64,000 nucleotides of DNA, from the NCBI RefSeq assembly GCF_921293095.1, contig NC_060248.1:129902972-129966971 (forward strand). The letters are read 5' to 3'. The notes under the pieces were generated by a model. It made no database searches, was not told the DNA's origin, and saw only the letters and a program-made list of their open reading frames with translations. Every line of letters begins with the position of its first letter. Positions within the stretch are counted from its first letter, which is position 1. Position numbers and translations under genes: made by a program. This document shows, piece by piece, positions 8,733 to 63,030 of this stretch. Source of the stretch: Ischnura elegans (taxonomy: Eukaryota > Arthropoda > Insecta > Odonata > Coenagrionidae).

Positions 8733-33249
<24,517 letters not shown>

Positions 33250-35462: not shown

Positions 35463-40971
<5,509 letters not shown>

Positions 40972-41343
40972 TTCTTCTTATTTCCACGGATCAAACAAAT
41001 ATCGGAGATTATTACACACAACACTCAGGAAAAGCTATTTCACGAGTGAGGAGATAGCGTGAGTAGAAACACACGTTTACACTTCTTATAACGTTTACAG
41101 CAAATGTTTACAAACTAATTGAAATTATGAAACCAAAGGAATTTAGTATCTTCATACACTTCATTACAATTATCAATTAATCACTACCTAGTATGTACGG
41201 AAAAACTTCAAATTTCACATTTGCAAGGCGGGTGACATGTTGCCCATGTTGCTCTGGCGTTAACGCCATCTGTGATGGACCGGTTGAATCACACTTAAAC
41301 AAAATAACAAAGAATTACCAGAAATTTGCACAGTTATCCGAGT

Positions 41344-61361: not shown

Positions 61362-61618
61362 GGAATGCTTTTATATAAGGCGACGTTTCGAGAGACGACT
61401 TGTCTCCCATCTTCAAGGTCATTTTACTCCATGGAAGTCCAATTTCACACTGAACGATACGACCGTTTACCGAGGAAAACAATACGGCTCAGGTATCGTC
61501 CGATTGGCTCTAAGTCTTTTGAAATTCTTCACGTTCTTCCCTTATGTTTTTTTAGAGTAACACGGCCTTGATGATGGGAGACAAGTCGTCTCTTTAAACG
61601 TCGGCTTATATAAAAGCA
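61362..61618. repeat. Fold-back repeat with degenerate hammerhead-like cores
   Basis: ATGCTTTTATATAAGGCGAC at the left and its near reverse complement GTCGGCTTATATAAAAGCAT at the right, each continuing through GAGACGACTTGTCTCCCATC. Each arm, read outward, has TTGA(A/T)GATG, a GAGAC..GTCTC hairpin and a (GA)AAACGTC block, in hammerhead order but with core mutations. Confidence 0.6.
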
Positions 61619-61803
61619 TCAACCTGGCTGAGAACCCGAGAAGTATTCATCTATAGTATTCACCAGGAGAAATTAAAATCGTTTACTACAGAGGAAGCTT
61701 AACAAAATTTCAACAGTCGTTGATAATATAACCTGAGGTTTCAGGCGAGATGGAGTGGAAACGGAACATAATAAAGAAGCAGGAGCAATTTCCACAATTT
61801 TAA

Positions 61804-61852
61804 ATTTATTGGTACTACCGGTTTCGCTTACAGCATCATCAGGTACAATATA
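61804..61852 (-). ncRNA. Hammerhead ribozyme motif, minus strand
   Basis: Same layout as the plus-strand motif: TATTGTAC, CTGATGA, T, GCT-GTA-AGC, GAAA, CCGGTA, GTACCAATA. The core is intact and the stem II loop differs by one base (GTA instead of GTT). Confidence 0.65.
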
Positions 61853-61946
61853 TAAAAGTGTGCAACGTCTTAAATAGGAAAGGCAGGATGGGGGTGGTAA
61901 GACGGTGGTAAGTAAGATTTCCTATTCAAGACGTTGCACACTTTGA

Positions 61947-61994
61947 TTTATTGTACCTGATGATGCTGTTAGCGAAACCGGTAGTACCAATAAA
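61947..61994 (+). ncRNA. Hammerhead ribozyme motif, plus strand
   Basis: Stem I TTTATTGTAC pairs with GTACCAATAAA (one bulge). The core CTGATGA (61957-61963) is followed by a short stem II GCT-GTT-AGC, GAAA (61974-61977), a two-to-three base-pair stem III ACC/GGT, and A as the cleavage-site base before GTACC. This is the compact type I form with minimal stem III known from Penelope-like elements. One extra T precedes stem II. Confidence 0.65.
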
Positions 61995-62449
61995 TTTAAA
62001 ATAGTGGAAATTTCTCCTGGTTCTTCATTAGTCTTTGATAATATATTTTAGTATTATTAATATCTTTGGCATCCCTTGATGGTGTCCACCGTTTTTCCCC
62101 GTGTGCTCCCCTACCCCTGAGATTCTTTTTTCTTTTCGTCGCTTGCCACCTGGCCACCCTACCTGTGCAGTTCTTGTCGCTTTTAATTGCGATTTTCTCG
62201 TTCGGGGGCGCAAGGAGGGGAGAGTGGCGTCAGGGCGGTCGACGCGAGGCGTTAACGCTTTGATCCACGGAGCCGCCGCCGCCGCGCGTGCATTAGGGTG
62301 GGTTTTGCGCGCCGCACCCCCCCTCCCCCCAACCCCATATGACCCCAGTCGCCTCTTAAGATCTTTTTTATCACCCTGTTTCGACCCTCTTGACTATATT
62401 CCGTATCTGGAGTATATAATCATCAGTTTAATATTCCATAACCACAATA

Positions 62450-62685
62450 AAGGCCTGTTTACACAGTACATTAACACGTACGGGTTAATGTCTACATGTA
62501 TGAACGCGAGAAATAACTCCAAAATGCACCGTGTAACGACCCAAATTGTGCGAATGCATGCACAGAATTTAGAACCCGTTCTAATTTGGTTCATGCATTC
62601 GTACATGATCCGTTCCGGTCCACAAAAATCATTCTCTCAAACGTAAATTAACTCGCACGTGTTAATGTATCGTGTAACAGGCCTT
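62450..62685. mobile_element. MITE family M2 with AAGGCCTGTT ends, copy 2
   Basis: AAGGCCTGTTTACACAGTAC at the left and its near reverse complement (GTGTAACAGGCCTT) at the right; interior blocks GCATTCGTACATG and TCTAAT..GGTTC match 4772-5162. Confidence 0.7.
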
Positions 62686-62947: not shown

Positions 62948-63030
62948 TCCGGCCTCGTTGGCGGCGGGAGTAAGTCCTCGCGTACCAATTTGAAGGTCGC
63001 GGGTTCGAGTCAAGTCTGGCTATCCAGGGA
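62948..63030 (+). repeat. tRNA-derived SINE head
   Basis: A-box-like TTGGCGGCGGGAG, then 35-40 nt later a good B-box GGGTTCGAGTC. The segment after it (GTCTGGCTATCCAGGG) is SINE-body-like. Not a complete tRNA cloverleaf. Confidence 0.5.

Follow-up and report, generated by a model that had tools for sequence, protein, structure and literature searches.

A head-to-head Penelope-like insertion with two hammerhead-like motifs in the Ischnura elegans genome

A 299-bp element in the window, by which we mean the whole stretch of 64,000 nucleotides of Ischnura elegans DNA that was analysed, very probably arose in a single retrotransposition of a Penelope-like element (PLE), by two-ended priming. Two pLTR arms, each with a hammerhead-like motif, face away from each other between target-site duplications (Table 1), and the pair fits the anatomy found genome-wide: the minus arm is tailed, the plus arm is not, and the 16-bp duplication has one mismatch. 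The window copy itself appears to be an inert, decaying insert in which the motifs are passengers. Its relatives form an archive of insertion events, in which hundreds of short, sharply bounded inserts record the end of each template RNA and the beginning of each cDNA.

Table 1. Positions of the Penelope-like insertion and its parts in the window
Feature	Position	Strand	Remarks
PLE insertion	61731-62029		299 bp, two head-to-head pLTR arms, flanked by target-site duplications
Left target-site duplication AGTCGTTGATAATATA	61715..61730		Matches 62030-62045 with 1 mismatch; final TATA could also be part of the tail end, which reads ATTATA in other copies
pLTR arm with 'tail', reading leftward	61731..61905	-	61726-61905 against L001 copy q268-447: 96% identity, 180 nt
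38-bp 'tail' found on the minus arm and not on the plus arm	61731..61768	-	Aligned arms; tail-pattern match at C3:129964704, 1 mismatch
Minus hammerhead-like motif	61804..61846	-	Predicted cleavage 61816|61815
TATA-like box TATTTAAG	61869..61876	-	30 nt upstream of the putative start 61846, the peak of arm ends in genome copies
12-nt filler at the head-to-head junction	61906..61917		
pLTR arm without tail	61918..62029	+	61918-62030 against L001 q292-404: 91% identity, 113 nt
TATA-like box TATTCAAG	61923..61930	+	30 nt upstream of the putative start 61953
Plus hammerhead-like motif	61953..61995	+	Predicted cleavage 61983|61984
Right target-site duplication AGTCTTTGATAATATA	62030..62045		Matches the left copy, 16 bp, 1 mismatch

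Within the insert, the arms form an inverted repeat (61769-61881 and 61918-62030; 113 nt, 93% complementary) with 36 nt between them. The plus arm ends at a shorter 3' boundary, CTTCATTA, and the minus arm at a longer 'tail' boundary, CCTCAG. A preliminary description of this DNA had placed two hammerhead cores in a facing inverted repeat at 61771..62028. The cores are borne out, with CTGATGA, GAAA and stem I on both strands, and the repeat is real, but the element is larger, covering 61731-62029 plus the duplications at 61715-61730 and 62030-62045. That description was also right that no RT or GIY-YIG frame is present here, since a 299-bp insert is too small to hold one (frames of at least 120 aa are present nearby). 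In place of the terminal fragment or non-autonomous unit that it proposed, we find a duplication-flanked insertion with both arms 5'-truncated, like the other copies examined. The long hairpin that it saw as a competitor of hammerhead folding holds for transcripts crossing the whole insert, for which the computed hairpin of about -160 kcal/mol buries both motifs; it would not apply to RNA transcribed from the predicted start within either arm, which would begin with one motif and exclude the other arm.

On each strand the motif reads GUAC-CUGAUGA-U-GCU-(GUU or GUA)-AGC-GAAA-CCGGUA^GUAC-C-AAUAAAU, where ^ marks what we take to be the cleavage position; the hammerhead numbering and the core consensus applied to it (CUGANGA and GAAA with stems I and II) are likewise our assumption, and a core of that composition is present on both strands. 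Stem I pairs GUAC with GUAC and, past a one-base bulge, has seven further pairs on the plus strand and four on the minus strand. Stem II is the 3-bp GCU/AGC helix described earlier, closed by a 3-nt loop; the earlier account is refined in two respects, in that an additional U separates A9 from stem II and that stem III amounts to a single A-U pair at most, a pair that carries a penalty in the energy model. The single-strand minimum-energy fold differs from the hammerhead fold (-8.5 versus -5.1 on the plus strand and -6.3 versus -2.9 on the minus strand). A search for the hammerhead-like pattern gives three hits in the window, all at the window insert, where two of the hits are the same motif with different ends; because 4 of 100 shuffles also yield three hits, the pattern alone is weak evidence. 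In Rfam searches, run without a proven PLE hammerhead as positive control, no family reached the gathering threshold anywhere in the window, and two short stretches gave no hammerhead family even at E<=10. Among 41 arms, core and flank are conserved to a similar degree, with no clear excess in the core (per column, 87-100% in the core and 90-100% in the downstream flank), so that conservation does not decide on function. These two results, no Rfam match and no conservation above the flanks, are the outcomes that had been named beforehand as speaking against the earlier reading. For two reasons they do not, in our view, overturn the PLE reading: decay in dead insertions is even, and PLE hammerheads are reported, in excerpts of PMC6155905, to be usually minimal, without helix III and tertiary interactions. 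The locus is classed as a PLE insertion bearing a hammerhead-like motif rather than as a proven hammerhead, the Rfam result and the flat conservation leaving catalysis a prediction from sequence.

The genome (1.72 Gb, 110 contigs) holds 195 matches to the exact core pattern and 734 to a tail pattern, with none for the reversed core control and none for the tail control; in viral contigs the core pattern has no matches. Ten close core pairs picked by eye among the 100 matches listed of the 195 are all -/+. Arm anatomy was read in 68 loci, chosen by an intact core and drawn from the 100 listed places before C6:112664045 of the 195 hits (30 core-hit loci, 40 regions around further listed places and the window, less three that overlap, L003, L009 and L018). 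Neighbouring arms reach q380 in 51 of these 68 loci, and all 51 pairs are -/+, that is, facing away, with none +/-; one additional +/+ neighbour is the split arm of L055, and 17 loci have no qualifying arm pair. Exactly one arm is tailed in 49 of the 51 pairs, the exceptions being L055, with a tail piece about 200 nt further on, and L059, where the second arm ends short of both boundaries. The anatomy that recurs is one of outward arms, one ending at CTTCATTA and the other about 38 bp further at CCTCAG(A/G)TTATA, between duplicated host bases. Target-site duplications of 9-16 bp exceed the score cut in 40 of the 51 pairs versus 0 of 80 mismatched flanks, in which different loci were paired, and 11 pairs are without a clear duplication. 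Since L024 and L025 are the ends of one insert and L043 and L051 are one duplicated locus (99.4%), the 51 pairs represent at most 50 independent ones. Taken together, L024 and L025 (C2:134010921-134015746) make up an insert of about 1.96 kb with an 11-bp duplication, the inverted arms of which share a 689-nt match at 98.8%. The extra sequence is partly not recognised as PLE, no RT was seen by eye in the translated insert, and this sequence was possibly captured between the pLTRs.

Coding sequence connects these arms with PLEs. Upstream of the pLTR in L035 lies the end of a protein frame with a GIY-YIG-like piece; this 58-aa protein end has at least 150 scored genome matches (3455 first-look candidates), with open frames of up to 684 aa, and the C-terminal piece of the frame is found upstream of the pLTR in L035, L076, L011 and L052. 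The 2,001-base stretch around the 684-aa frame (L131) contains an open frame of 527 aa with an RVT_1 match above the cut-off (E 1.4e-10) and YVDD, followed by a pLTR in the same orientation, which bears TATTTAAG, GTACCTGATGATGCTGAAAAGCGAAACCGGTC and GTATTAATAAAT and has the core. An RT frame directly upstream of a core-bearing pLTR places the motif in the pLTR of an RT-coding element, and the Penelope-like origin suggested in the preliminary description is supported. The L131 pLTR is about 80% identical to the L001 pLTR and so belongs to a related subfamily, not to the direct parent. For the endonuclease, GVY...YVG...R...E is visible by eye in L131; the GIY-YIG profile (PF01541) matches the 23-aa L035 piece below the cut-off (E 0.018) and gives no match in the 527 aa or in an 84-aa piece of L131. 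The PLE features found comprise the RT in L131, inverted head-to-head pLTRs, a tail on one end and target-site duplication, and the arms of some copies extend into PLE coding sequence. PLE C-terminal ends also occur on opposite strands, 338 bp apart in both cases, at C1:4295134/4295472 and C4:50372369/50372707; these are copies in head-to-head order, truncated within the ORF and possibly duplicated. Weak matches in L029 (1875-1985), L062 (98-259) and L047 (3457-3576) resemble C-terminal ends of other PLE families.

The positions at which arms end were mapped in the first 73 of the 734 tail hits, taken best matches first (well-kept copies) and regardless of core. They were aligned to L036, whose own end is uninformative; automatic recognition picked out partner arms in 44 of the 73, and inspection by eye shows some that it overlooked (L002, L075, L106, L118). 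The 5' ends of the tail arms fall at 45 different positions, 15 of the 73 lying exactly at -31 from the predicted cleavage site, where the background is about 0.44 per position. Counting by region, 23 end from -32 to -29, 11 between -28 and -3, 5 within 2 nt of the cleavage site and 17 downstream of +2; a further 17, including the window arm (-90; partner -66), end beyond -32, so that -31 is not the sole template end. Among the 56 tail arms that reach +1, 53 run past the predicted cleavage site (two by 2 nt only) and three stop there. Set against about 0.44 expected, three stops at +1 in 73 tail arms (P ~0.01; two more at -2 are counted as passing) form a weak pile-up, for which GTAC microhomology may be the cause, and none of the 38 partner arms reaching the site stops at +1. 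The passage of 53 of 56 arms implies that the insertion templates were mostly uncleaved, in agreement with the in-vitro finding of PMC11167929 and as a statement about those RNAs that inserted.

The motif begins at -31, 30 nt downstream of the point where TATTTAAG begins. For a TATA-directed start, a spacing of about 30 nt is expected. The arm-end peak at this distance from the TATA-like box suggests that the element's own transcription probably begins at the motif, which would stand at the 5' end of the element's RNA, with a predicted start GTACCTGATG; the predicted cleavage would leave the 5' end GUACCAAU. Palindromic joining could partly be a source of the peak. CAG|GTAC is read by eye at six of the 15 ends at -31 (L075, L098, L106, L117, L118, L124) and is not seen by eye at the other nine (L002, L013, L014, L092, L103, L115, L119, L120, L127), among which L103 and L120 adjoin sequence with no visible arm. 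A ribozyme cut in trans at -31 (AUU^GUACC) was also considered and set aside, the TATA-like box 30 nt upstream being the simpler reading.

In the mechanism that we propose, the element's protein would cut both target strands with a stagger, and each DNA end would serve as a primer for copying element RNA into cDNA, starting from two different internal positions. These cDNAs would then grow toward each other, would stop at scattered points or at the 5' end of the RNA, and would be joined via short filler or microhomology; some templates, that of the window copy included, would start further upstream by read-through. The RT start sites and the transcription start of the PLE used in this scheme are putative positions. 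It is conceivable, if quite improbable, that the hammerhead at the first RNA nucleotides serves not template making but closure of the head-to-head insert, the GTAC strand of stem I forming the cDNA 3' terminus at which opposing cDNAs would anneal to give CAGGTACCTG joints.

An inverted repeat could also be produced by self-priming, in which one PLE cDNA folds back and copies its own strand, as proposed for a rotifer Penelope (PMC3846280, in excerpt). Head-to-head junctions are expected from this route as well, some of them palindromic, as are the CAGGTACCTG joints seen at 12 of 131 loci, and the long arm match in the single duplication-flanked L024/L025 insert, extending over sequence partly not recognised as PLE, also speaks for it. 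So does the rare variant TGTGAAGC, which is common to both arms of one insert (C6:64501011/64501062); however, shared variants are equally expected if both arms copy one RNA, and we take this one to mean that the templates of the two arms were probably one RNA or sister RNAs. If the first arm were copied by folding back, the second would be expected to have the tail as well, yet 49 of 51 pairs show exactly one tail, with the other arm ending at a fixed boundary. Two separate priming events fit this pattern better, and we consider self-priming unlikely.

Small size, hammerhead-like motifs and high copy number would suit a separate non-autonomous, retrozyme-like hammerhead unit that spreads as small circular RNA via double self-cleavage, the more so as retrozymes and PLEs are described as co-existing in animals (excerpts of PMC7229834). 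Such a unit is very improbable here: animal retrozymes are tandem repeats according to the same excerpts, whereas tandem direct units bounded by a hammerhead were not found and neighbouring arms are inverted, tail-arm 5' ends are scattered and mostly lie past the predicted cleavage site, and some arms run into PLE coding sequence. A chance inverted repeat or a host microRNA-like hairpin with an accidental resemblance to a hammerhead is scarcely credible. It would account for the absence of an Rfam hammerhead match, for a core pattern that alone is only mildly rarer than chance, and for sub-threshold matches to microRNA precursors (MIR172 at 36.8 bits versus a gathering score of 70), which we set aside because they follow from the long inverted repeat; against it stand hundreds of related copies, target-site duplications and the occurrence of the same core downstream of an RT frame. 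For the inverted repeat, a chance origin is refuted by the genome copies.

Other repeats and genes were observed in the window beside the PLE insertion. A second head-to-head inverted repeat (61365-61429 and 61555-61619; 65 nt, 89%) has a hammerhead-like core on its outgoing strands, with TTGATGA or TTGAAGA, a long stem II and then CGAAACGTC or TTAAACGTC. With up to 3 mismatches allowed, a pattern made from this repeat matches the genome 1648 times and the control not at all, and six close pairs picked by eye among the 100 matches listed are all -/+; the repeat is probably an inverted pLTR of another PLE family. A short MITE-like element at 62450-62685 is bounded by terminal inverted repeats, AAGGCCTGTTTACAC...GTGTAACAGGCCTT, and encloses another, smaller inverted repeat, and a tRNA-like, SINE-looking stretch at 62950-63030 contains a GGTTCGAGTC-type box, with no tRNA found by ARAGORN. 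Profile matches further identify a Tc5/pogo-type transposase in two frames at 9730-10968 (HTH_Tnp_Tc5, DDE_1) and minus-strand exons of Twisted gastrulation (114-476) and of a leucine-rich-repeat protein (40288-40977).

Head-to-head pLTRs, the tail, the duplication and the hammerhead in PLEs have each already been published (PMC3846280, PMC11167929). What is new here is the mapping of arm ends, which points to insertion templates that were mostly uncleaved and to a predicted transcription start at the motif; in the open-licence literature, searched at the level of titles and abstract beginnings, we found no description of such mapping at a PLE hammerhead. The genomic sample agrees with the report of an uncleaved substrate in vitro. 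The pattern of one tail per insert in addition constrains models of two-ended priming.

Among known systems, metazoan type I hammerhead retrozymes are likewise small hammerhead-bearing repeats in animal genomes, but in the excerpts of PMC7229834 they are tandem repeats with circular RNAs, in contrast to the inverted pairs with scattered 5' ends described here. The likeness to the Penelope of Adineta vaga is closer. According to excerpts of PMC3846280, its pLTRs are inverted, most often head-to-head, with an optional tail on one of them and duplications of 8-10 bp, and the present copies share with it an inverted pLTR adjoining a direct one, the one-sided optional tail, target duplications, junction palindromes or microhomology and a TATA-like box in the pLTR. 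Its tail is 31 bp, compared with about 38 bp here, and its copy number is very low, whereas the copies here number in the hundreds and those examined are mostly tiny; the word hammerhead is absent from the Adineta vaga text. PAc, the Poseidon PLE of Anolis carolinensis (PMC11167929), also has a hammerhead in its pLTR and a tail that spans the interval separating two RT start sites. The anole protein cuts and extends both target strands, and reverse transcription starts internally, with no strand difference in start site observed in that study. Stem II of the motif is where the PAc ORF begins, whereas ATGs in the core here reach TAA within three codons in the GCTGTAA copies. Cleavage of PAc was demonstrated in vitro and is protein-dependent, whereas the present motif is known from its sequence. 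In PAc, hammerhead cleavage is not needed for insertion in vitro and uncleaved RNA is the dominant substrate, and the arm ends of the genomic copies point to the same kind of template in the damselfly.
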